This document shows positions 11,521-55,211 of a stretch of 64,000 nucleotides of DNA, one piece after another (position 1 is the first letter of the stretch; each line of letters begins with the position of its first letter). The translations under genes and the position numbers were made by a program. A model generated the notes under the pieces. The model ran no database searches. It was not told the DNA's origin and saw only the letters and a program-made list of their open reading frames with translations. This stretch comes from a virus, in IMG/VR virus record IMGVR_UViG_3300030103_004672, positions 1 through 64,000 of that record, one strand, 5' to 3'.

Positions 11521-11865
11521 ATGAAAACATTTAAAGATTTTAAACAAGAAGGAACAGATAATCTCTTCGAATCAGCTATGGCAGAGCAACTAACACCAGA
11601 GCAAGAAAAAGCTATTGACGAAGTAGTTGATAGAATCTTAGAGGGTGATGCTAACGGTGAAGATTTAGAAAAGATAATGCAAGAAATAGTTAATGAAGGT
11701 ATTATTGGATCTATATTTGGTGGCCTTACTGGTTTTGCACTTGGAAAAACAATTGGGAAAACAATTGCTAAAGTGCTTGGGATTAATAAGGGGATTTTAT
11801 ATGATATGCTAACAAGTAGACTAGTGGGTGCGGCCTTAGGTTCTGCTATTGGCAAAAAGATATAA
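11521..11865 (+). CDS. Small protein with capsid-targeting-like N-terminus and glycine-zipper helices
   Basis: The protein has 114 residues and begins MKTFKDFKQE, the K-x-F-x-x-F-x-x-E pattern seen on T4 internal head proteins such as IPIII (MKTYQEFIAE). Residues 25-60 are acidic and helical. The C-terminal half has two Gly-rich hydrophobic helices (IGSIFGGLTGFALGKTIGK and LVGAALGSAIGKKI) with GxxxG spacing, as in glycine-zipper membrane-active proteins. It is therefore a candidate packaged protein that could insert into a membrane after DNA ejection. That function is inference. A TATATAA element lies just upstream at 11511-11517. Confidence 0.6.
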   Translation: MKTFKDFKQEGTDNLFESAMAEQLTPEQEKAIDEVVDRILEGDANGEDLEKIMQEIVNEGIIGSIFGGLTGFALGKTIGKTIAKVLGINKGILYDMLTSRLVGAALGSAIGKKI

Positions 11866-13928: not shown

Positions 13929-14986
13929 TGTCAGCTGATTCTAAAATACGAGCCCGGGTAATCGAAAAGGTTACCCGGGTTATTCGTATGAATCATACTG
14001 AATATGAAAAGAAGCAAGCAGTACAAGGTCGGGATAGACTAAATTTTGCTTGTCCATATTGTGGAGATTCTACGAATGATCCTCGAAAGAAAAGAGGAAA
14101 CATATATTGGGCAGATCTATTTTTTCATTGTTACAACTGCAATCAGCATAAGAATGTAGATGAGTTTCTTCGTGATTTCAACGAAAGTCTTGAAGGTGAA
14201 GAACGTGTTACCCTTATAAATTCAATAAAAGAATCAAGAAAGAAGTTTAGTAAGATTGAAAACCTAGACTTTTATCTCTTTGAAAAGCTAGATGAACTAG
14301 CACTTGATTTTAACATAATATCAGATTTCTTTGGTTGCAATCCTATAAACGAAGTCTCTGCTAGGGCATATCCTTACCTAAAATCAAGATTGTTGCATCA
14401 CAAGCTAAACAATTTTGGATATAACCCTAGAACACAAGACTTGTATGTTTTTAATTTCAACAGATCTGGTAAAATTATAGGATTTCAAGTAAGGTCTTTA
14501 TCAGGAAGGGGCCCTAAATATAGGACATATAACATAGAAAAGATTTACGACAGAATCTCTAAGCCACTAAATCTAGATGAAGAAGAGATAGCTGCACTAA
14601 ATAAAATATCTATGATATTTGGCTCAATGGTTTCTAACTTTTCAGATACTCTAACTATCTTTGAAGGACCGATTGATGCAATGTTTATGCGCAACTCCAT
14701 AGGTCTGACTGGTGTTAAGAAAAAGGTCATGGATTTTGGAGAGATACAGAATGTAAGATATTTCTTTGATAGTGATATTGAAGGAAAGCGAAAGATGCTT
14801 GAAAAACTCAGAGAAGGAAAGACTGTCTTCATGTGGAAAAAGTTCTTTGATGATCATAGAATCAATCCAAAGATTGTTAAGGATTTAAACGATTTAGTCA
14901 AATACGAATATAAGTATAAGAAAGGTTGTCTCAAAAACTTAGACGACTATTTTACAAACAACTCATTAGATGCAATATACATATGA
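13928..14986 (+). CDS. 61: DNA primase gp61
   Basis: This DnaG-type primase makes RNA primers for lagging-strand synthesis together with the gp41 helicase. The N-terminal zinc ribbon is visible as CPYC near residue 43 and CYNC near residue 68. A TOPRIM domain follows, with FEGPIDAMFM (catalytic Glu) and YFFDSDIEG (Asp pair), ending in KDLNDLVK. At 352 residues it is close to T4 gp61 (342). It overlaps the gp32 stop, and its own stop overlaps the next ATG (ATGA, 14983-14986). A strong hairpin lies within its first codons (13953-13979). Confidence 0.9.
   Translation: MSADSKIRARVIEKVTRVIRMNHTEYEKKQAVQGRDRLNFACPYCGDSTNDPRKKRGNIYWADLFFHCYNCNQHKNVDEFLRDFNESLEGEERVTLINSIKESRKKFSKIENLDFYLFEKLDELALDFNIISDFFGCNPINEVSARAYPYLKSRLLHHKLNNFGYNPRTQDLYVFNFNRSGKIIGFQVRSLSGRGPKYRTYNIEKIYDRISKPLNLDEEEIAALNKISMIFGSMVSNFSDTLTIFEGPIDAMFMRNSIGLTGVKKKVMDFGEIQNVRYFFDSDIEGKRKMLEKLREGKTVFMWKKFFDDHRINPKIVKDLNDLVKYEYKYKKGCLKNLDDYFTNNSLDAIYI
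13953..13979 (+). promoter_or_regulatory. Strong hairpin at the gp32/primase junction
   Basis: CCCGGGTAA (13953-13961) and TTACCCGGG (13971-13979) form a perfect 9-base-pair stem with a 9-base loop, unusually GC-rich for this genome. It lies inside the first 17 codons of the primase gene and is not followed by a T-run, so it is not a classical terminator. It may reduce primase expression or protect or process the gp32 mRNA. Confidence 0.55.
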
Positions 14987-15189
14987 AAAAGTTTAGTGAA
15001 TTTTTGTTAGAGACTAACGATTTTTATAATGAGTTTGAAGCCAGATCTAAAAGGCTTAAATTGTTTGTAGACTTCAAACCATCTGAATACGATCACTCAA
15101 AAAGGAGTATTGAAATAGAGAAACCAAAAAAGAAATTTAAGCCAACAACCTCAACATTTACAAAAAAATCTGATAAAAGCATATTTTAA
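14983..15189 (+). CDS. Small protein with capsid-targeting-like N-terminus
   Basis: The start at 14983 overlaps the primase stop (ATGA) and is preferred to an upstream start inside the primase gene. The 68-residue product begins MKKFSEFLLETNDF, matching the K-x-F-x-x-F-x-x-E pattern. The rest is basic and Lys-rich (EKPKKKFKPTTSTFTKKSDK) and ends in KSIF. It could be a small DNA-binding internal head protein released at the Glu by the prohead protease. I do not recognise the body of the protein. Confidence 0.6.
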   Translation: MKKFSEFLLETNDFYNEFEARSKRLKLFVDFKPSEYDHSKRSIEIEKPKKKFKPTTSTFTKKSDKSIF

Positions 15190-15638
15190 TGGCATACGAT
15201 GATCAACAGATAGCAAATGATAACCAACAGTTATCTCAACGTTTAGAAGAAGACCGAGCCCTTTGGGCAGATAGAATAAAAGGAATAGTCAGAGACACTA
15301 AGCAAATGAATAAACTCGCTGATGTCCAGGTTAGCATGCTATCGTTTAGACAGATGCTGATAGACAAAACCGTAGAATTCAAAAATATTTTATATAGAAG
15401 AAAGTCTTCATGGGACAAATACTTCAAGGTAAAATATAGAGAATATTCGATAAATTATGATGTAAAACTTAATTCATCGGAGAAGGCTTCATTTATAAAA
15501 GCAGATCTTAGTGCTTTAAAGACACAGATAAATATGATTGAAACCCATATTGAATATTATGGCGAATGCATAAGGACTTTAGACAATATGGCCTTTGCAA
15601 TACGCAATAGAATAAAACTTAACGAAGACGATTTTTAA
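15189..15638 (+). CDS. uvsY: UvsY-like recombination mediator (candidate)
   Basis: UvsY helps load the UvsX recombinase onto gp32-coated DNA. This 149-residue protein (T4 UvsY 137) is helical and basic in the middle, and its last 60 residues resemble the T4 C-terminus: SALKTQINMIETHIEYYGEC then AIRNRIKL here, against a segment ending AIKSRGF in T4. Its position just before uvsW fits the T4 order, where uvsW and uvsY are neighbours. It starts where the preceding gene ends. Similarity is by eye and moderate. Confidence 0.55.
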   Translation: MAYDDQQIANDNQQLSQRLEEDRALWADRIKGIVRDTKQMNKLADVQVSMLSFRQMLIDKTVEFKNILYRRKSSWDKYFKVKYREYSINYDVKLNSSEKASFIKADLSALKTQINMIETHIEYYGECIRTLDNMAFAIRNRIKLNEDDF

Positions 15639-17143
15639 TGCATCTGGAGTTAACTCAAGATAAGAGATTTTTACAAATAAAGGCCTGTACTGAACTGGAA
15701 TACGATCAGTTAAAGTCGAGTCTCACTAAAAGAATTGATGGTTGGAGATTTCATCCGTTAGTTAAAAGACGTGTGTGGGATGGAACTATAACATACGTAA
15801 AGGGAAATAAGATACCGGCCGGACTTTGGAAAGAGGTAATCGATATTTGCCGAGAATATTCATTTGAAGTGAAGCTTGACGGTGTTACAAGAATATTTGA
15901 TACAGATATAAATGAAACCGACTTTGTCGCATGGGTTGATGAATTCTTTGAAGGGCACGAACTTAGTCCTAGAGACTATCAAATAGATGCTGCATATAAG
16001 ATATTAAAATACAGAAGATGTTTAGCCGAACTTGCAACATCAGCAGGTAAGACGCTAATATCATTTATGGTCATTGGATATCTTATGGAGGTGCTAAATA
16101 AACAACGCATTCTGATGGTAGTGCCAAATGTCAGTTTAGTAGTACAAGCAACTGGCGATTTTGAAGAATATAACAATGACAAGCTATCGCTAAGAATCCA
16201 ACAAATTTATTCAGGAGCAAAGCTAAGGAAGAGTTCAAACATAGTTGTAGGAACTTACCAATCTTTGGCAAAAAAGGACAAGGCTTATTTTGAACAGTTT
16301 GATGTAATACTAATCGATGAGACACACAAAGCCAAAGCTGCGTCTATTCAGAAAATTATGGATAAATGTTGGCATTGTGACTATAGGTTTGGCTTAACAG
16401 GAACTGTTCCAAAGAGGGGCACTGTAGACAGATTGACTCTTATGTCGGCAATGGGACCATTAGTATGTCAGGTTAAGGCAAATTACTTGCAGGACGAAGG
16501 CTACATAGCAAATTGTAATGTTGTTCAATATCATTTAGATTATGCATCAGAAGAACAAAAGGAATCTTTTTCCTTCTTATCAAAAAGACCTGAAGACAGA
16601 AAAAACCTTTTTGAGCTTGAGAAAAACTTTATAAACCAAAATGATCTGAGGCTTGATTTCGTTTGCAATAAAATAGCAGAGTGTGAAAATAACTCCTTAG
16701 TGTTATTCCATAGAATTGCATATGGCGAAAAAATATACAAACGCTTAAGAGAAACTACAGATAAAATGGTTTATTATGTAGATGGATCTATTAATGCTGA
16801 GTTAAGAGAAGAATTTAAGTCTAGAATGGAACGAGGAGATGGTGTTATAATTGTAGCCAGTTATGGAACTTTCTCAACAGGTATTTCTATTAAAAAGATT
16901 CACAACATATATTTCACAGAGAGTTTTAAAAGCGAAGTTATCATTAGACAATCTATCGGAAGAGGCTTAAGAAAACACTCAAGTAAGGATACAGTTTACA
17001 TTCATGACTTTATAGATGACTTTAGATATAAAAATGCATCAGACGATTGGATTAACTATATCTTTAGACATGGGATTGAAAGAAGAAAAATATATAAAGA
17101 GGAGAAATTCCCATTTGAAATCAAAAATGTTAGATTATTTTAA
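15638..17143 (+). CDS. uvsW: DNA/RNA helicase UvsW
   Basis: This superfamily 2 helicase remodels branched DNA and R-loops in recombination-dependent replication. The 501-residue protein (T4 UvsW 503) shows the Q/phosphate-binding motifs RDYQIDAAYK and LATSAGKTL, the DEXH box as LIDETHKA, motif III as LTGT, and motif VI as QSIGRGLRK. The first 100 residues correspond to the UvsW N-terminal DNA-binding domain. It ends in NVRLF, one of several C-terminal (S/R/K)(L/I)F peptides in this genome. It lies directly after the UvsY candidate. Confidence 0.92.
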   Translation: MHLELTQDKRFLQIKACTELEYDQLKSSLTKRIDGWRFHPLVKRRVWDGTITYVKGNKIPAGLWKEVIDICREYSFEVKLDGVTRIFDTDINETDFVAWVDEFFEGHELSPRDYQIDAAYKILKYRRCLAELATSAGKTLISFMVIGYLMEVLNKQRILMVVPNVSLVVQATGDFEEYNNDKLSLRIQQIYSGAKLRKSSNIVVGTYQSLAKKDKAYFEQFDVILIDETHKAKAASIQKIMDKCWHCDYRFGLTGTVPKRGTVDRLTLMSAMGPLVCQVKANYLQDEGYIANCNVVQYHLDYASEEQKESFSFLSKRPEDRKNLFELEKNFINQNDLRLDFVCNKIAECENNSLVLFHRIAYGEKIYKRLRETTDKMVYYVDGSINAELREEFKSRMERGDGVIIVASYGTFSTGISIKKIHNIYFTESFKSEVIIRQSIGRGLRKHSSKDTVYIHDFIDDFRYKNASDDWINYIFRHGIERRKIYKEEKFPFEIKNVRLF

Positions 17144-17145
17144 TC

Positions 17146-17156
17146 TGATATATAAA
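17146..17156 (+). promoter_or_regulatory. Late-type promoter element
   Basis: TGATATATAAA, a full match to the repeated element, lies right after the uvsW stop and 34 bases before the acidic tagged protein at 17190. It would separate the tagged-cargo cassette from the replication genes upstream and place it under late control. Confidence 0.6.
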
Positions 17157-17189
17157 AATATATTACGAAACTCTAAAAAATAAAGTAAA

Positions 17190-18410
17190 ATGCCACGTAT
17201 TAAGAAATTTTCAGAACTTCTAACAGAGTCTAGATCTACAGACGTACAGGAAGTTGTTAAAAAATTAGGATTTAGTTCTTTAGAAGAAATCAAAAAAGAA
17301 AGAGCAATGCTAGCCAAGCTAGAAGCTTTGCTAAAATCTATTCCCCAGTCAAATCAAATAGCAGAGGATGATGCCGATGAAATTGAAGACGAAGTTGTAA
17401 AAATGGGTACTCCAAAATCTTTAGAAGGTGCTGATGGAGAAAAAGAAGAAGATGGTGAAACAGGTGTCGAGGGTGACGTTGAAGAGGCAGAGGAATCAGA
17501 AGAGGTTGAAGCTGAAGTATCAGTAGAAGAACCTGCTGAGGAAGAAGTTGAAGAAGCTGCCGAAGAAGATGAGGCTGAAGATGAGGCTTCTAAAATTGCC
17601 GATGAGGTTGTAGCTAAAGGCGAACCTAAAGAACAACCAGAAGGTGAGGGTGATGAAGTAGTAACTAAAGATCAGGAAATCGAGACAGAAGTCGAAGAAG
17701 AACCTGCTGATGCTGAAGCTGGCACTGATGTTCCTAAGAAAAGAATTAAGTCGTTTGCAGAATTCGTGGCTGAAAAAGAGGTTACAGTTAATAAGAATGT
17801 AAACTATCACGACGACGAAGAAGAGAAGGAAGATTACGGAATGCCAGTGGCTGCATCCGCTGATCCAATGTCTGAAGGAATGTATGAGGATGATGACGAT
17901 GATGACGATGATGATCACGACGATGATGATCATGAAGATCGCGAAGAGCATGAGGGCAAAGAGGATGAGAAGAAAGGTGAAGAACTAGAAGACGAAGGAG
18001 ATGAGGATGTTGATTCAGAAGATGATGCCGAAAAAGAAGTTCATTACAAAGACGCTGTAAAGGATGACGAAAAGGAAAAAGAAGATCTTGAAAAGGATAT
18101 AGAATACGACGAAGAAGAGGAGGACGATGCTAAAGAGGATGAAGAAAAGAAAAATGAATCTCTAACAGTATCATTTGCTAAATTTGTCGCTGAAGCTTAT
18201 GAAGCAGAAGAAACTGAAGAAGAAGAAGTTGAAGAGGAAGAAGTTGAAGAGGAAGATGCTAAAAACGAAAAATATGACAGAGTCGTATTAGGTGGAAACA
18301 AAGGAGACAAATCTAAAACTCATTCAGGTGAAGATTACGAGGACGAGGATGACAAGAAAGAAGAAGGCGAAGAGCCTTTAGCAGATGAGTCTGAAGTAAA
18401 TGAAAAATAA
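17190..18410 (+). CDS. Highly acidic protein with three capsid-targeting-like peptides
   Basis: About half of the 406 residues are Glu or Asp, including a run of nine Asp near residue 234. Three copies of an F-x-x-F/L-x-x-E peptide occur: KKFSELLTES at the N-terminus, RIKSFAEFVAEKE at 185-197 and VSFAKFVAEAYE at 327-338. T4 internal proteins carry such a peptide at the N-terminus, and the gp21 protease cuts after the Glu; T4 also packages acidic internal peptides cut from scaffold gp22. This may be a precursor of several acidic head peptides or an accessory scaffold. That role is inferred. An ATG after a late-type promoter opens the gene. Confidence 0.65.
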   Translation: MPRIKKFSELLTESRSTDVQEVVKKLGFSSLEEIKKERAMLAKLEALLKSIPQSNQIAEDDADEIEDEVVKMGTPKSLEGADGEKEEDGETGVEGDVEEAEESEEVEAEVSVEEPAEEEVEEAAEEDEAEDEASKIADEVVAKGEPKEQPEGEGDEVVTKDQEIETEVEEEPADAEAGTDVPKKRIKSFAEFVAEKEVTVNKNVNYHDDEEEKEDYGMPVAASADPMSEGMYEDDDDDDDDDHDDDDHEDREEHEGKEDEKKGEELEDEGDEDVDSEDDAEKEVHYKDAVKDDEKEKEDLEKDIEYDEEEEDDAKEDEEKKNESLTVSFAKFVAEAYEAEETEEEEVEEEEVEEEDAKNEKYDRVVLGGNKGDKSKTHSGEDYEDEDDKKEEGEEPLADESEVNEK

Positions 18411-18419
18411 AATCTAAAA

Positions 18420-19064
18420 ATGAAAAACCTCAAATCATTTGGTCAATTTTTAAACGAGCAAACATCAACTGAAGGTTTGTCAGAAAGAGCAAAGCCAGTT
18501 AAGAAAAGAGACTGGGACAAAGCTGATGATGAACAAAGAGAAGAATGGCTGCTTCAGGCATTTTCTGATCCAGATGATGCTACGGAATTTATTGAAGTAG
18601 ATTGGAAAGACCTGCCACCGACCGCAACTCAGAATATGGTGATGGAAGGCACTAGAGCCCAGGTTGGATTAATCGATCCTACTGGCCGAATCAGAAGTGT
18701 ATATTTGCATAGTGACGGTGGCCCGGATTCTGCTGGTAAAGTTTTGAAAAACAACTATTCTGATACTACTAAAGTCATCAAGTTATTAGATTTAGGAACT
18801 ATGGGGATTTCAAGCCTTGCACCTTCTATGAGGGGCGGTAAAGGTCATGATTTTTATAATAGAAAGCCTGGAGAGACTGTTTTTTATGGAAGAGACCGGG
18901 GCGAGACAGGAAGACCTATGATGACTCTAGGAAACGAAAAAAAGATGAAACAATTCATGGGCGATGCTCTAGGTGACTCAGATTTTCTTTATCTTTGGGA
19001 TTCTAGAGACGGGCAATGGTTAGTTGCAGATGCAAGAACCAAAAAATTACAACCACTTAAATAA
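18420..19064 (+). CDS. Tagged protein of an uncharacterised phage/bacterial family
   Basis: The 214-residue protein begins MKNLKSFGQFLNEQ, the capsid-targeting-like peptide, followed by a linker of about 60 residues. The body contains GRIRSVYLHSDGGPDSAGKVL, KVIKLLDLGTMGISSL, ETVFYGRDRGETG and FLYLWDSRDGQW. This order resembles a widespread unnamed family of small phage and plasmid proteins with motifs like IYCHWDGYP, LGDLSSL and AYGRDRGE (from memory, not searched); its function is unknown to me. The extra N-terminal peptide would direct this copy into the head. Confidence 0.6.
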   Translation: MKNLKSFGQFLNEQTSTEGLSERAKPVKKRDWDKADDEQREEWLLQAFSDPDDATEFIEVDWKDLPPTATQNMVMEGTRAQVGLIDPTGRIRSVYLHSDGGPDSAGKVLKNNYSDTTKVIKLLDLGTMGISSLAPSMRGGKGHDFYNRKPGETVFYGRDRGETGRPMMTLGNEKKMKQFMGDALGDSDFLYLWDSRDGQWLVADARTKKLQPLK

Positions 19065-19073
19065 TTTATAAAA

Positions 19074-19292
19074 ATGGCAAGACTATTAGGATTTAACGAT
19101 TTTCTTAATGAAAATGAGAAAATAGAGTCAGAAGCTGATTTTAAAGCATATGCTGAAGAAGTTTTAAAGGCAGCACATCCTGATGATTACGATCAGGAAA
19201 TTGCTGATAAAACAATTGCAGATTTGACACAAAAATACAATGGCGATTACGGTGCAATGATCGGAGCACTTACAAGTGGCCTAGGTAAGTAA
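19074..19292 (+). CDS. Small protein with capsid-targeting-like N-terminus
   Basis: The protein has 72 residues and starts MARLLGFNDFLNENEK, a variant of the tag peptide. The remainder is acidic and helical (DFKAYAEEVLKAAHPDDYDQ) with no recognisable motif. It lies between two other tagged genes with 9- and 5-base gaps, so it is probably co-expressed with them and co-packaged as a small internal head protein. That role is inferred from the peptide and position. Confidence 0.6.
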   Translation: MARLLGFNDFLNENEKIESEADFKAYAEEVLKAAHPDDYDQEIADKTIADLTQKYNGDYGAMIGALTSGLGK

Positions 19293-19297
19293 TACTT

Positions 19298-20569
19298 ATG
19301 AAATACATCCAATTATTTGAAAATTGGCTGGCCTCAAAAAGCCAGCCTTTTTTGTTTGAGGGCGGAGCAGCTGGGCATATGATGCATCCGTTTGACGACA
19401 AGGAATTGACATTTGGCGATTTTAAAAACATGATAGACTATGGTCTACAGGGTCGTCTTGACTTTGAAGAAGAGCCGACAGAAAAAACAGATGGCCAAAA
19501 CGTTTTTGCTACAATCCAAGATGGCAAAGTAAAATTTGCTAGAAATAAGGGAGATCTAAAAAGACCGATGTCTTTAGGTCAATTTACTCAAAAATTTGCA
19601 AACCATCCATCAGAGCAAGTTAGAGACACGTTTACATTTGCCGCAAACGATTTAGCAAGCATGTTAACAAGATTGCCTAAAGATGTGCAAGATAAAGTTT
19701 TTAACAACGGTAAGGATTTTATGAATATGGAGTTAATATATTCACTAAATCCAAATGTTATTAATTACGATAAGGACGTAATAGAATTTCACGGCATTAA
19801 GAAGACTGATGGAAATGGAAATATAATTGGTGAAGATACTAAGGCAGCTAGTGAAATAGCACAAATACTAAAAAGACTAGAAGCCAATGTAGGTAAAACA
19901 TTTTCTGTGATTCCACCAACTAGAATTAAGTTGATGAAAGATGTAAATTATGCAGCTAACAAAGCTGACTTGGTAAACAGAGTTGAATCATTAAGAAAAA
20001 AATATAACCTAAAAGACACAGATCCTGTTTCTAAATACCATGAGCAATGGTGGATGGATCTAATAAATAAAGACTTTCCAGATTTAGACGATGATGTTAA
20101 ATTAGGTTTAATGCAAAGGTGGGCATATGGTGACAAGAAATCTTTGGACATGAGATCCCTGAAATCTAGGGTATCTCCTGTAGACTTTGAAGCAATTAAA
20201 AATTTAGATAAAACTGATTTGCGAAGAAAGCAAAAAGAAAACATCGGCCCGTTTGAAGATATTTTTCTAAACCTAGGTGCTCGAATAATCTCTAATGCTG
20301 AAGATTTCTTAACAGCGAATCCAACTGAAGAAGCAAAAAGGCTCAGATCATCTATTAGTGCTGCCGCTAAAAATCTCAGAAAGGGTGGCAGTGAGCAGCA
20401 AATTGCAAGATTAGAAGATGAGCTAGCTAGGTTAGAAAAGTTAGGAGGCATAGAAATGGTTTATCCTACAGAAGGAATTGTTTTTAAATACAAAGGTAAA
20501 ACATATAAGCTTACTGGAAGCTTTGCGGCTATAAACCAATTATTAGGAATACTAAGATACGGAAGGTAA
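19298..20569 (+). CDS. RNA/DNA ligase-family nucleotidyltransferase with tag-like N-terminus
   Basis: The 423-residue protein contains ligase-superfamily motifs: motif I as EKTDGQN with the putative AMP-accepting Lys63, a following strand VKFARNKGDL, FMNMELIYS near residue 145 (motif III-like), and a C-terminal motif IV/V pair EGIVFKYKGK and YKLTGSF near residues 392-407. Such enzymes seal RNA or DNA ends through a covalent AMP-lysine intermediate. It opens with MKYIQLFENWLASK, a looser version of the tag peptide. A terminator-like hairpin overlaps codons 10-18. T4 has three ligases (gp30, Rnl1, Rnl2); which this matches cannot be decided by eye. Confidence 0.7.
   Translation: MKYIQLFENWLASKSQPFLFEGGAAGHMMHPFDDKELTFGDFKNMIDYGLQGRLDFEEEPTEKTDGQNVFATIQDGKVKFARNKGDLKRPMSLGQFTQKFANHPSEQVRDTFTFAANDLASMLTRLPKDVQDKVFNNGKDFMNMELIYSLNPNVINYDKDVIEFHGIKKTDGNGNIIGEDTKAASEIAQILKRLEANVGKTFSVIPPTRIKLMKDVNYAANKADLVNRVESLRKKYNLKDTDPVSKYHEQWWMDLINKDFPDLDDDVKLGLMQRWAYGDKKSLDMRSLKSRVSPVDFEAIKNLDKTDLRRKQKENIGPFEDIFLNLGARIISNAEDFLTANPTEEAKRLRSSISAAAKNLRKGGSEQQIARLEDELARLEKLGGIEMVYPTEGIVFKYKGKTYKLTGSFAAINQLLGILRYGR
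19326..19353 (+). terminator. Terminator-like hairpin inside the 5' end of the ligase gene
   Basis: GGCTGGC (19326-19332) and GCCAGCC (19341-19347) form a perfect 7-base-pair stem with an 8-base loop, followed by six T residues (19348-19353). This is a canonical intrinsic terminator, but it lies within codons 10-19 of the ligase-like gene. It may end transcripts of the tagged genes upstream and attenuate the ligase genes downstream. Confidence 0.6.
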
Positions 20570-23422: not shown

Positions 23423-23737
23423 ATGAAGCATATTCTAGAAATGAATGATTTTTTGAATGAAAAAAGAGTAGTTGTTAAGAGAAGATATACTGAAAAACAT
23501 CCCGCAAGGCAAGTTTCTACTGCGGCTAGAATCAGAAATACTGTTTTAGAAGCAATTGCAGACGGCGTAATCACAGAAGAAGAGCTAAAAACTATTTTAT
23601 CACAGTTAGAAGCAAACTCACGATGGCTGAGTAGGAATACTAATTTATTTAATATAGATGAAGACGAAACAGGTGTGAAGAGATTTACATTATCACCTTA
23701 TGGACACCGTGTTAGAACTAGAACAATAGAGTCGTAA
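23423..23737 (+). CDS. Small basic protein with capsid-targeting-like N-terminus
   Basis: The 104-residue protein begins MKHILEMNDFLNEKR, a variant of the tag peptide. The following segment is basic (VVVKRRYTEKHPARQ). Residues 35-75 are helical (VLEAIADGVITEEELKTILSQL), and the C-terminus is again basic (GHRVRTRT). I do not recognise a family. It follows the ligase/NMNAT fusion by 12 bases and precedes the next gene by one base. Confidence 0.6.
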   Translation: MKHILEMNDFLNEKRVVVKRRYTEKHPARQVSTAARIRNTVLEAIADGVITEEELKTILSQLEANSRWLSRNTNLFNIDEDETGVKRFTLSPYGHRVRTRTIES

Positions 23738-23738
23738 A

Positions 23739-24140
23739 ATGCCAGCACTTTCTAAAACACAGCAAAGACTGATGGGAACTGCTTATGCAGTCAAGAATGG
23801 AGATCTAGACCTTAAGTCTGTTGATGCAGAGTACAGGGACAAAATCAAGGATCTTGTTGATGGCATGACGTTGAAGCAACTAAAAGATTTTGCAGAAACC
23901 AAACATGAAGGATTACCAGAAGTAAAAGAAACTGTAGCTCATTTAAACCCTAACATGAATGTCCAAAGCATGGGTGAACCTTCTGTACCAGGTAACCCAG
24001 GGCTAATGAATGACTTTGTGTCTCAACAAACTGGAAGTGGCGACCTACTTTCGACAAAAGATGTTAAAAAAGTTAAGAAAAAGAAAAAGAAAAAGAGCTG
24101 GTTAATGACTTTTGAGCAGTTTAACAATAAAAACATATAG
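23739..24140 (+). CDS. DUF3008-like protein sharing a capsid-protein segment
   Basis: The N-terminal 65 residues (MPALSKTQQRLMGTAYAVKNG, ending in FAETKHEGLPE) look like the DUF3008 family of small phage proteins of unknown function. Residues 68-102 then match residues 56-90 of the major capsid protein at 52381 without gaps: both contain HLNPNMN and end TGSGD, with 20 of 35 positions identical by eye. The tail is a Lys-rich run followed by SWLMTFEQFNNKNI, resembling a C-terminal version of the tag peptide. It may bind a capsid partner, mimic the capsid N-arm or be packaged. Function unknown. Confidence 0.65.
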   Translation: MPALSKTQQRLMGTAYAVKNGDLDLKSVDAEYRDKIKDLVDGMTLKQLKDFAETKHEGLPEVKETVAHLNPNMNVQSMGEPSVPGNPGLMNDFVSQQTGSGDLLSTKDVKKVKKKKKKKSWLMTFEQFNNKNI

Positions 24141-50543: not shown

Positions 50544-52214
50544 ATGTCTAAAAATTTATTAATCATAGAAAGATCGAGCACCGTACTCAATACGCAGAAG
50601 GAGACGGATGGTTCGGTAATACTCGAAGGAGTCTTTACACAAATAGGAGTAAAGAACAAGAATAACAGAATTTACGAAGAAGAGGAAGTTCTACCTCATA
50701 TTAATGAGCTAAAAGAGAAGGTTGCTAGTAAAAAATTATTAGGCGAACTTGATCATCCAAAGGATTTTGATATTAGCTTATCAAATGTATCTCACGTTAT
50801 CGAGGATCTAAGATATGATGAAAACAAAAAACAAGTTTTAGGTCGAATTAAATTATTGAACACATCTAAAGGTAAAGAAGCAAAGGCGCTAATAGAAGAC
50901 GGTATTCCATTACACATCTCTAGCAGGGCTGCTGGAACTGTAGGTGATGATGGTCGAGTAAAAATTAAAAAATTCTTTACATATGACTTAGTCGCTGATC
51001 CTGGTTTTGAAAACGCAGAATTAGCAAGAGTTAACGAATCATTTGGATTTGATGCAGATGACTCTTTATACATCTATGAAGTTAATGAACAGATAAATAA
51101 ACCAAATAAAAAATCAGAAGAAATGGCTCAAGAACAATATGTAACTGTTGAGGACTTTAACAAGTATACTGAATACTTAAAAAATGAAATTGAGAGAGTA
51201 AAAGAAACAGCTAACGATGATCAGTCTGCTACAATTCAAAAACTAGTTGAGTATTCTGAGCATATCGCTGAGAAAGTAAATCAGGTTACTGATTATGTTG
51301 AGTATGTAGCTGAAAATGTCGATAAGAGCATTTCATATACTGACTACTTAGCAGAAAATATGAACAATATTAAGGAATACACAGATTATTTAGCTGAACA
51401 GTTAGATACAGGTATTCAATATTCTGAGCATGTTGCTGAAAAGACAGATCAGTCTATCGAATATGCTAATTACCTAGGAGAAAGCTTAGAGAAAGGAATT
51501 GCATATAGCGAGTACATTGCTGAGAAACTCGATAAGAGCATTGCCTATTCTGAGTACTTGAAAGAGAATGTCGAAAAGAGCATTACTTATACTGAGTATG
51601 TTGCTGAAGAAGTAAACAACGAATACGGAAAGATTTTAGCTGAAAATGCTAAAGATACAGCTGATGGTAAAATTGTTGTAGAGTCTGACGATTCTTACAA
51701 AGCTAACATTAGTGAAAAACTAACAGCTCTTGTTGAGAAGGCTGAATCTAAGAGCAATCACAACTTGTTCTTCATGAATTTCTTAACTGAAAAGAAAAGA
51801 AATGAGTTCGGTGCATTAAACAATGAAAAGCAAGATAAGATTGTAGAGCAAATGAATTCAAACCGTTGCATGTCTACCATAGACGCTGAGAGAATTTGGG
51901 ATTCTTGCTTTGTTACTGAATCTAATAAATTAGATGTTGTAGATAGCATGCCAGAGAAATACCGCGCAAAATGGGAATCATTGAGTGAAGGTAAGAAAAA
52001 CCAGATTCTAGCCGAGTCACAGTTCAGAAGCTTAGATACTCAATATGCTATCGATAACTTCTGGGCAACTAGAGATCTTCGCGATACTAAAGTTGAGTTA
52101 GAAAAAATCAACGAATCTAAAGTTGCTGGTGAGGATGTAGAAAATCCATATGCAGTAAATGAAGATTTCAAGAATGACTTAGTTAACAGACTAAGATTCA
52201 ACTTAGGAAGATAA
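50544..52214 (+). CDS. 21: Prohead protease gp21 fused to a gp22-like scaffold
   Basis: Residues 1-175 are a prohead protease: LLGELDHPKD carries the catalytic His71, HISSRAAG the serine at 126/127, and ADPGFENAEL matches the family. From residue 194 the protein becomes a helical acidic scaffold: nine 14-residue repeats at 234-359, then a helical C-terminal part with protease-site-like FLTE and ILAE. In T4 protease (gp21) and scaffold (gp22) are separate genes; here one 556-residue frame carries both. An in-frame ATG at 51123 (MAQEQYVTVEDF) could make a scaffold-only product. It is followed by a strong terminator. Confidence 0.85.
   Translation: MSKNLLIIERSSTVLNTQKETDGSVILEGVFTQIGVKNKNNRIYEEEEVLPHINELKEKVASKKLLGELDHPKDFDISLSNVSHVIEDLRYDENKKQVLGRIKLLNTSKGKEAKALIEDGIPLHISSRAAGTVGDDGRVKIKKFFTYDLVADPGFENAELARVNESFGFDADDSLYIYEVNEQINKPNKKSEEMAQEQYVTVEDFNKYTEYLKNEIERVKETANDDQSATIQKLVEYSEHIAEKVNQVTDYVEYVAENVDKSISYTDYLAENMNNIKEYTDYLAEQLDTGIQYSEHVAEKTDQSIEYANYLGESLEKGIAYSEYIAEKLDKSIAYSEYLKENVEKSITYTEYVAEEVNNEYGKILAENAKDTADGKIVVESDDSYKANISEKLTALVEKAESKSNHNLFFMNFLTEKKRNEFGALNNEKQDKIVEQMNSNRCMSTIDAERIWDSCFVTESNKLDVVDSMPEKYRAKWESLSEGKKNQILAESQFRSLDTQYAIDNFWATRDLRDTKVELEKINESKVAGEDVENPYAVNEDFKNDLVNRLRFNLGR
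51243..51620 (+). repeat. Nine tandem 14-residue coding repeats in the scaffold part of gp21
   Basis: Nine in-frame 42-base units encode Y-(S/T)-(E/D)-(Y/H)-(V/I/L)-A-E-x-(V/L)-x-(K/N/Q)-(S/G)-I-type units (for example LVEYSEHIAEKVNQ and SIAYSEYLKENVEK). DNA copies are diverged but protein spacing is exact, with Tyr and Glu every 14 residues, as in a repeated coiled coil that might measure scaffold length. Confidence 0.8.
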
Positions 52215-52380: not shown

Positions 52381-54117
52381 ATGTACGCAAATCGTCTTAT
52401 TAATGAGGCTGAGGTTCAAAAGACTTGGACACCTATCATTTCAGAGGCTACTGGTATCGAGGACAAAAGCAAACTTGCTTGGATGTCTAAGTATTGCCAC
52501 TACCATAACTTGAATGAGAGTGTTTATAACACTGTGCACCTCAACCCTAACATGAACCTTCAAGGTATGAATGCGCCAGCTTTCCCAAATGACCCAACTA
52601 CCTTGAATGCATTCCCAGGCCAAGTAACTGGTTCTGGTGACAAACCTTTCTCTTTGCTTCCACTTGCTATGCAGGTTGCTGCTCAGACTGTAGGTCTTGA
52701 CTTAGTACCTGTTGTGCCAATGCAAGGTCCTATGGGAGTATTAACTTACCTGGACTTCGTATACGGTGGTGGTAGAATTCAAGATGCTGGTGGAAAAGCA
52801 ACTGATTCTGCACCATTGATGATCAAATTCGCTTTTGATAACTTACAAGGTGCTGCTTTAGTAGAAAACGACCTAGTATACGCATCTTCTGCCGCGCTTA
52901 CTACAACTGTTGCTCCTTACGAATTAACATTCATTGGATTATCAAGAATTGATGGTAAATCTATTTTCCGTGTAAGAGGTAACGATGACGCCACTGCAAC
53001 TACTGCTGGTGTTTACCAACAAGGTGAAGTAGGTTATGAGCCTATCTATGATGCAATTGCTAATAACGTAGACTTCTACGATGCTGCTGCCGCACAAGCT
53101 GGTGATGTAAAAGGTACAGTTGACGGAAATGTTGAGTTAGTAAAAGCTTTAGAAGATCATATCCCAGGTTTCTCAGGTTCTGCATTTGAAGCAAACAACC
53201 CAGTTGGATCTGCTCCTACTTTCGGTGTTGAGAATATCGGTGGTGTTGACCCATACCAAAGAGGTGTTGGTGAAGCTACTCCTGATAACAACTTAGGTCT
53301 TTCTTTATTCAACAAGTCAGTTGCTGCTATGACTTACCAAGTTGCAGCTGCTGTTACTCGTGAGCAAGTACAAGATCTTAAGCAATTCGGAATCGATGCA
53401 GTTGCTCAAGTAGAGGCTGTACTTGTTAATGAATTGACTCAGTCAATCAACAAGTTAATCCTTGATCGTATCTTCAAGCTTGGTGTAACTAACGCATTCC
53501 AAGTATCTCAAGTCAATGGAACAGTTCTTTCTGCTCACTTTGACCTAACTGGAGGTGTTGGTACTACAATTGCTCTCGGCCAAGATAACACTGGTACTGC
53601 TCGTTCAGTAACTGTTGATAGTGTTAACGTTGCTGGCGGTGGAGAAACTCAGGGTACTCTACAGCGTAGAATCTTAACTAAGATCTTAGCTGCTACAAAC
53701 CTTATCGCTGTACGTGGACGTCGTGGTCCAGCTACTTTCGCTGTAACTAGCGGAAAGATGGCCACTGCTATCCAAGACGTTGCAGGTTTCGTACCTTACC
53801 CACTATCAAATACAGTTAACCAAGCTGGTGGATCACTCTACCCAATTGGTGCTGTTGCTGGTGTAACTATCTACGTTGATCCAAACCGTGATTTTGATGA
53901 TAACAAGATTGCTGTTGGACGTAAAGGAGATGGAAACTCACCAGGATTGGTATTCATGCCTTACTTAATGGCTGAATCAGTTGAGACAATCGCTGAAGGA
54001 ACTATGGCTCCTAAAATTGCGGTTAAATCACGTTTCGCTCTTGTTGAGGCTGGTTTCCACCCACAAACTATGTACTACACTTTAGACTTCGTGTTGACAG
54101 GTGTTGACTTGATCTAA
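52381..54117 (+). CDS. 23: Major capsid protein gp23
   Basis: The 578-residue protein (T4 gp23 521) is the main shell protein. The start LINEAEVQKTWTPIIS and the N-terminal 50 residues resemble the T4 delta domain; a prohead-protease site may be LNE near residue 50. Family blocks include LVPVVPMQGPMGVLTYLDFVYG, AAVTREQVQDLKQFGIDA, NKLILDRIFKLG, RGRRGPATFAVTSG and VGRKGDGNSPGLVFMPYLMAE. Codon choice is visibly richer in C-ending codons than neighbours, as for a highly expressed gene. Residues 56-90 are shared with the small protein at 23739. It has its own promoter and terminator. Confidence 0.92.
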   Translation: MYANRLINEAEVQKTWTPIISEATGIEDKSKLAWMSKYCHYHNLNESVYNTVHLNPNMNLQGMNAPAFPNDPTTLNAFPGQVTGSGDKPFSLLPLAMQVAAQTVGLDLVPVVPMQGPMGVLTYLDFVYGGGRIQDAGGKATDSAPLMIKFAFDNLQGAALVENDLVYASSAALTTTVAPYELTFIGLSRIDGKSIFRVRGNDDATATTAGVYQQGEVGYEPIYDAIANNVDFYDAAAAQAGDVKGTVDGNVELVKALEDHIPGFSGSAFEANNPVGSAPTFGVENIGGVDPYQRGVGEATPDNNLGLSLFNKSVAAMTYQVAAAVTREQVQDLKQFGIDAVAQVEAVLVNELTQSINKLILDRIFKLGVTNAFQVSQVNGTVLSAHFDLTGGVGTTIALGQDNTGTARSVTVDSVNVAGGGETQGTLQRRILTKILAATNLIAVRGRRGPATFAVTSGKMATAIQDVAGFVPYPLSNTVNQAGGSLYPIGAVAGVTIYVDPNRDFDDNKIAVGRKGDGNSPGLVFMPYLMAESVETIAEGTMAPKIAVKSRFALVEAGFHPQTMYYTLDFVLTGVDLI

Positions 54118-54200: not shown

Positions 54201-55211
54201 ATGATTTTTTCTTACGACACCTTTAATAGAATCAACGAATCTGTAGAAAGAGTTGAAAAAAATGGATTAGTAGAAGAAGGCCTGCTTGCCGCTATTAAAT
54301 TTCCAATTAAATTTACTAAAATTAAAAATAATGCCAAGAAATATCTAAAGGCTAAAATGAAGCACATGTCTGTAGAGGTTGCATTGGCTAAAAAGAAAGC
54401 AAATACCAACTGGGCTGACCTTCCACCAGAAAAGAAAGAAGTGGTAAAATTGGCTGCAGATGCTAAAAAGAGAGCAATTGACCTAGAAATGAAGTCTATT
54501 ACAGACAGGATTGCTAAATTGGCTTCTAGTCCTATGTTACAGGATTATGCAGCTTATAAGAAAGGGGAAGCAGATTTAGAGGCTGCACTAGAGCTCCAAA
54601 AAAATATGGAGAGTGAAGCTGACCAAATATTAATTCAAAAGAGAATTAAAAATCTTCAGACTAAACAGGCTGAAAGAAAGGCTGAACTAGAAACAAAACC
54701 TGATCCGGAAGAAGATAAAGGTGGTAAAAGTGATCAGAAGGCGGACGAAACGCCGTCAAGAGCTGAACAAGATGCTGAGGCTGAAAGGGAAAAGGAGAAG
54801 GCTGCAGAGGATAAAAAGAAACAGGCTTTAGAAGATGCTAAAAATAAGATTGCTGACGCTAAAGCTGCATATGATAAGGTTAAGGATGGTGATGATGAAA
54901 GAGCAAAGTTTGACGCACAGATAACGTTTAAGCAAGCACAGCAGGAGAAAGCAAAGATAGAGGGAAATACCGAACTATACCAAGCACTAGCTAAGGATCA
55001 AGGAGATATCCTAAAGAAAATTGACAATCTAGATAAAAATAAAGATCCCAAGGTAAAAAAGCATGAAGATAAGATTAAGGAATACGAAGAAGCAATTGAT
55101 GTCTTAAAAGACAAGACAGACAAAAAATCAAAAGGAGATCTTCAAATAATACAGTCTGCATTGAAATCCGAAAAAGAAAAATTAGCTAAGGCTAAAGAAG
55201 AATCAAAATAA
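54201..55211 (+). CDS. Charged coiled-coil protein with capsid-targeting-like N-terminus
   Basis: The 336-residue protein begins MIFSYDTFNRINESVERV, a variant of the tag peptide (F-x-x-F-x-x-x-x-E). Residues 25-65 are basic; the rest is a Lys/Glu/Asp/Ala-rich coiled coil to the end (for example AEREKEKAAEDKKKQALEDA). It has no hydrophobic core domain. A late-type promoter 20 bases upstream and the position after gp23 point to an internal head or scaffold-associated protein. I do not recognise the family. Confidence 0.6.
   Translation: MIFSYDTFNRINESVERVEKNGLVEEGLLAAIKFPIKFTKIKNNAKKYLKAKMKHMSVEVALAKKKANTNWADLPPEKKEVVKLAADAKKRAIDLEMKSITDRIAKLASSPMLQDYAAYKKGEADLEAALELQKNMESEADQILIQKRIKNLQTKQAERKAELETKPDPEEDKGGKSDQKADETPSRAEQDAEAEREKEKAAEDKKKQALEDAKNKIADAKAAYDKVKDGDDERAKFDAQITFKQAQQEKAKIEGNTELYQALAKDQGDILKKIDNLDKNKDPKVKKHEDKIKEYEEAIDVLKDKTDKKSKGDLQIIQSALKSEKEKLAKAKEESK

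Follow-up and report, generated by a model that had tools for sequence, protein, structure and literature searches.

Small phage proteins carry a copy of the mature gp23 N-terminal arm that co-varies with the cognate capsid protein

The carrier gene and its match to gp23

The window analysed here spans 64,000 nucleotides of a viral record of 88,677 bases. It contains a small gene whose product, referred to below as the carrier, combines a DUF3008 domain with a C-terminal copy of a segment of gp23, the major capsid protein (table 1). The DUF3008 assignment made in the original prediction was confirmed by a Pfam match to PF11450 above the cut-off (40.5 bits against 24; E 3e-10). The gp23 gene was recognized by the PF07068 profile (106 bits, cut-off 24.4), and a sequence search against the PDB matched its capsid body to T4 gp23 and gp24. 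AlphaFold2 modelled the carrier as three helices, a long coil that includes the arm and a short C-terminal helix, with a mean pLDDT of 66 and values of about 80 across residues 11-50 of the DUF3008 domain. Foldseek returned DUF3008 or uncharacterized phage proteins as top matches, none with E <= 0.001, and searching the PDB with the carrier sequence gave no significant match. DUF3008 was the sole Pfam match in the 133 residues, and no capsid fold of the T4 gp23 type was found in the carrier. The model of gp23 itself (pLDDT 49) was too poor for placing the arm.

Table 1. Features of the window and gp23-like frames of other records; a slash within a motif marks the candidate cut.
Feature	Position	Strand	Basis
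Cytidylyltransferase-domain protein, 942 aa	20582..23410	+	Pfam
Carrier gene, 133 aa: DUF3008 domain and C-terminal capsid-arm copy	23739..24140	+	ORF, Pfam
DUF3008 domain, residues 3-62; helices predicted at 6-20, 30-42, 45-53	23745..23924	+	Pfam PF11450, AlphaFold2
Candidate prohead-protease sites L59-P-E61/V and V62-K-E64/T, directly before arm copy	23913..23930	+	sequence
Arm copy, residues 67-102, predicted unstructured	23937..24044	+	alignment, AlphaFold2
Lysine-rich stretch, residues 107-119	24057..24095	+	sequence
C-terminal peptide W-x-x-x-F-x-x-F, residues 121-129; helix 125-131 predicted	24099..24125	+	sequence, AlphaFold2
Prohead protease (S77)/core protein, may process both gp23 and the carrier	50544..52214	+	Pfam PF03420, E 2e-13
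gp23 major capsid protein, 578 aa	52381..54117	+	Pfam PF07068, E 3e-30
Candidate gp23 maturation site L44-N-E46/S47	52510..52518	+	E46 invariant in alignment A2; cleavage itself inferred
gp23 mature N-terminal arm, residues 47-87, GSGD end; T4 N-fist equivalent by position	52519..52641	+	alignment
Frame like gp23 propeptide and P-domain start (LR745206)	L427:871-1377
Frame like gp23 propeptide and P-domain start (LR756502)	L428:731-1267
Frame like gp23 propeptide and P-domain start (LR756500)	L152:12198-12713

Carrier residues 68-102 aligned without gaps to gp23, with 20 of 35 positions identical, including HLNPNMN and TGSGD. This was the observation that had drawn attention to the locus, and it was borne out, except that the gp23 residues originally given as 56-90 were numbered 3 too high and are 53-87. 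The alignment reached a Smith-Waterman score of 114, compared with a mean of 32 (s.d. 4.7) and a maximum of 56 in 2000 shuffles, which rules out chance similarity. With blastp within the window, the match grew to 47 residues (E 7e-10), and the LPE of the carrier came to lie opposite LNE46 of gp23. The matching gp23 stretch comes after the invariant E46 and before the P domain and begins six residues past the candidate LNE46/S47 site, in agreement with its earlier placement just past a probable cleavage site. Apart from the carrier and gp23, nothing in the full 88,677-base record matched the segment.

Similarity between the two proteins is concentrated in the arm: identity falls at once past GSGD and fades upstream. 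When the arm was masked, 17 of the 19 carrier-gp23 pairs described below scored inside the range of 60 shuffles, the window carrier among them (29, shuffle maximum 30), and the pairs from G077 (42 versus 36) and LakC1 (28 versus 27) lay slightly above it. Common ancestry of the whole proteins was ruled out, since no convincing similarity remained once the arm was masked. Within the arm, codons agreed at 164 of 341 identical residues other than M and W, with 184 expected from codon usage. As this agreement is no higher than usage predicts, the identity has been kept as protein and not as a DNA signal or a recent copy. The same test rules out recent gene conversion and gives no support to a duplicated nucleic-acid packaging signal, which had been among the first suggestions.

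Distribution of the arm copy among phages and carrier proteins

Scanning IMG/VR with the carrier protein returned 80 loci. The open reading frame was read at 38 positions, comprising 37 of these loci and one locus of LR756500. In most close DUF3008 relatives, the C-terminal part contained a core GMG-x-V-x-(L/F)P ... GSGD, with a basic stretch after it and then an aromatic peptide. The shared segment, whose absence from relatives would have counted against the original prediction, is therefore present in them. The window carrier reads SMG instead of GMG and was detected through GSGD in the regular-expression scans below. In 15 aligned carriers, the invariant columns included G79, P84 and GSGD 99-102, and the DUF3008 domain and the arm core were equally conserved. 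A profile scan added 80 loci, some on contigs already seen, with GSGD after the domain in 26 and absent in 54, of which a few reads end at a contig end. A scan of GTDB gave three short matches of DUF3008 type, covering the matched stretch only.

Regular-expression ORF scans of the window and ten large contigs (G005, G007, G008, G012, G014, G029, G080, G052, G056 and G066) found gp23 and one small carrier per contig in 11 of 11; contigs were taken in pieces of up to 20 kb, so that a copy spanning a boundary could be missed, and the scans also gave chance matches in long unrelated ORFs. The pair was seen again in the 180 of 462 kb of LR756500 that were read. A motif profile search of 14 whole records detected a carrier in 10 (LR756500, PTm1, Lak-B5, Lak-C1, LR756501, LR756502, LR745206, G077, G029 and G080), with two carriers in LR756502. 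It returned gp23 only in PAU and MA9V-2 and no match at all in pT24 and MaF61. Likewise, the complete sequences of PAU, MA9V-2 and MaF61 and 175 of the 235 kb of pT24 (60 to 235 kb) contained no carrier, so the carrier is dispensable in the wider group. Among 19 contigs found through gp23 (13.8-182 kb), all of which may be fragments, none had a carrier.

The arm copy is not bound to one type of protein. The DUF3008 proteins of G029 and G080 have no arm; there it is encoded by the adjacent downstream gene, whose product likewise has the lysine-rich tail and the aromatic peptide. The carriers of the LR7565xx, Lak and Tenacibaculum PTm1 records are unrelated proteins of 60-280 aa, and the parts other than the arm look unrelated in LR756501/502, LR745206, Lak-B5/C1, PTm1 and G077. 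In those of LR756501/502 and LR745206, a targeting-like N-terminus comes first, then an x-E site, the arm and finally a basic tail; the LR756501 carrier starts MKRVITFTEYLNES, with the arm next. The Lak carrier is an open frame of 63-77 aa, and that of PTm1, a cultured phage, is a 279-aa frame at about 217 kb of the record, with the protease and capsid genes following closely downstream. The arm copy has thus moved as a module between carrier proteins, and DUF3008 was ruled out as an essential part because the arm sits in other proteins elsewhere.

Three kinds of open frame were noted alongside. One, of 60 aa, lies in the LR756501 record at 714073-714150 (L365) and has GSGD and a long lysine-rich stretch, with a weak profile match (E 0.05). 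Frames of 169-179 aa in LR745206, LR756502 and LR756500 resemble the gp23 propeptide and the start of the P domain, without the arm (table 1). A 191-aa frame in LR756501 (L430:717-1289) resembles a C-terminal piece of gp23.

Co-variation of the carrier arm with the cognate gp23

The comparison of carriers with capsid proteins covered 19 carrier/gp23 pairs from seven gp23 clades. Contigs without one partner, LR756503, LR756504 and other Lak records were excluded, and the second LR756502 carrier (82 aa) was used only in variants of the test. Clades were assigned by the analyst and agree with a tree of gp23 built without the arm, except for the group of the window and LR756500 (support 0.39). In all 19 pairs, the small protein carries the segment between the candidate gp23 cleavage site and GSGD. 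Cognate pairs scored 85.7 on average and non-cognate pairs 55.4. In the seven-clade block matrix, each diagonal cell topped its row and column, and of the 5040 possible clade permutations only the true one reached the observed value. The same 1 of 5040 was obtained in 8/8 variants (fixed windows, two gap settings, either LR756502 carrier). Depending on the variant, the single best gp23 was the carrier's own for 8-11 of 19 carriers and came from the carrier's clade in 14-17 of the 19 cases, which makes the match for the most part specific to the clade.

Cross-similarity drops as the gp23 bodies diverge. One old duplication should have left cognate arms no closer than non-cognate ones. At the level of sequence, these comparisons show that the carrier arm and the gp23 arm co-evolve, and the joint change of the two copies across distant phages suggests insertion of the small protein into the wall of the capsid. 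Of the readings first proposed, the one with strong support is that the carrier mimics the mature capsid N-arm, as the copy spans the candidate cleavage site to GSGD and co-varies with the phage's own gp23 arm in seven clades; a capsid partner for which the two proteins compete, or which they share, would also fit.

Possible processing, head location and roles of the arm copy

Cleavage by T4 gp21 follows an [LI]xE rule. Dereplication reduced 61 carriers to 45, and 35 of these had a site of the form [LIVMFY]xE/[SNDGA] at most 34 residues upstream of the arm, compared with a mean of 11.9 and a maximum of 21 in shuffles. The enrichment is weaker when DUF3008 proteins are compared, with the strict site in 26/35 with the arm and 17/39 without it. 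The window carrier lacks a strict site, as V or T follows E in both LPE/V and VKE/T. Given this lack and the frequency of such sites in arm-less DUF3008 proteins, we did not take the candidate sites as proving cleavage of the window protein. Tails with an aromatic-x-x-aromatic motif were found in 36/45 carriers (shuffle mean 14.0), and 34/45 had a basic, net positive tail. No N-terminal capsid-targeting sequence was found in the window carrier; its aromatic peptide, which resembles capsid-targeting peptides, is C-terminal instead.

In cyanophage S-SCSM1, for which mass spectrometry identified 45 virion proteins (PMC9602691), the 69-aa DUF3008 homologue has no arm and is annotated as a virion protein, and its neighbours match those in the window: cytidylyltransferase-domain, DUF3008 and tail-fibre genes follow the order of the S-SCSM1 virion-protein genes. 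Cytidylyltransferase-like proteins are reported in cyanophage virions (PMC9602691). Cyanophage DUF3008 (PF11450) proteins share the N-terminal domain and the nucleotidyltransferase and tail-fibre neighbourhood, and the named ones among the best matches listed end at or soon after the domain. Targeting-like N-termini such as MKNLKSFGQFLNEQ occur in window ORFs 11521-11865, 14983-19292, 19298-20569, 23423-23737 and 54201-55211, many of them close to the DUF3008 gene, which suggests a cassette of head-interior proteins.

Known systems were compared through excerpts of PMC9602691, PMC9958956, PMC3012670, PMC7136217, PMC5694885 and PMC10052503. In T4, mature gp23 starts with the N-fist (25 residues, 66-91), whose region is on the inside before the prohead expands and on the outside thereafter; the five gp23 subunits that face the portal have a disordered N-fist (PMC9958956, PMC7136217). 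The N-fist touches four subunits and contributes to the Soc site (PMC9958956). The T4 internal proteins (IPI-III, Alt) lie in the head interior and have a targeting peptide and a protease cut (PMC9958956, PMC3012670); these excerpts describe no gp23 arm for them. The carriers of LR756501/502 and LR745206 share their order of parts, whereas the window carrier, with its C-terminal aromatic peptide, differs. The T4 vertex protein gp24 is a second gp23-related head protein (PMC5694885), which is a paralogue over the whole fold, while the carrier has only the arm in common with gp23. Like the N-fist, the present arm directly follows the maturation cut and precedes the P domain, and in a weak local alignment, capsid profile position 100 (near window residue 103) falls on T4 gp23* residue 40. 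There was no clear sequence similarity between the present arm and T4. To our knowledge, the arm occurs only in gp23 in T4, and no arm-copy protein is known there. No mention of DUF3008 was found in the openly licensed papers searched, and titles and abstract openings of those listed on capsid mimicry and Lak heads contained no arm copy.

We give about even chances to the reading that the carrier is a basic accessory protein of the head interior that uses a copy of the mature gp23 arm of its phage to dock on gp23. We infer its virion location, cleavage, binding site and function as follows. The carrier would enter the prohead core via the DUF3008 domain and/or the C-terminal aromatic peptide. 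A T4-type prohead protease would then cut just before the arm copy, as in gp23, exposing the same arm on both proteins. Docking on the gp23 arm site is proposed because the present arm is positioned like the T4 N-fist; by this analogy, the freed arm may take the place on gp23 where the arm of an adjacent subunit usually binds, and would probably do so at a minority of sites, for example around the portal. The lysine-rich tail would thereby be fixed to the capsid wall, facing inward and contacting DNA or the core.

Co-evolution would arise equally if one further protein (scaffold or core, portal, decorating protein or chaperone) recognized both arms and the carrier recruited or titrated it, and the part of the N-fists in forming the Soc site offers a precedent. 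However, among partners that would change along with each gp23 clade, gp23 itself is the simplest, and we consider such a third partner rather unlikely. An arm that merely marked two substrates for the prohead protease or for prohead import would account for the protease-like sites upstream of it and the presence of an S77 protease. Yet the arm is C-terminal to the cut and retained on mature gp23, and other window ORFs with targeting-like N-termini and L-x-E sites have no arm, which makes this explanation improbable. Similarly low is our confidence in a competitive regulator of assembly, whose arm copy would block receiving sites and slow or time lattice closure or expansion without lasting in the virion. 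A less abundant competitor bearing the same arm would target that very site, and T4 arm regions do move outward at expansion, but the lysine-rich tail and the targeting-like peptide speak for a protein that stays in the head interior. Finally, repeated copying from gp23, or gene conversion, could have left the arm behind without a function, given that carriers differ between clades and the arm has moved more than once. This we regard as highly implausible, as its residues stay alike while codon agreement is at chance level, and as its core is as conserved as the DUF3008 domain.

On docking to gp23, we tentatively propose a new class of head protein, the arm-copy tether, in which megaphages with Lak-type gp23 would encode a small, carrier-independent module that docks in capsid arm sites and serves either to tie DNA or core to the wall or to occupy arm sites left vacant at special vertices. 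As part of the same tentative proposal, the module would comprise a cleavage site, a private copy of the mature arm, a basic tail and an aromatic peptide and would co-evolve with gp23, and some of these phages may encode further pieces of gp23 as separate proteins. If this is true, huge phages reuse the capsid arm that locks their lattice as a plug-in anchor on another protein. The arm sequence offers a means of finding head-interior proteins in megaphages that have not been cultured, Lak among them, and its co-variation with the cognate gp23 predicts a binding interface that is testable with peptides and gp23 assemblies.
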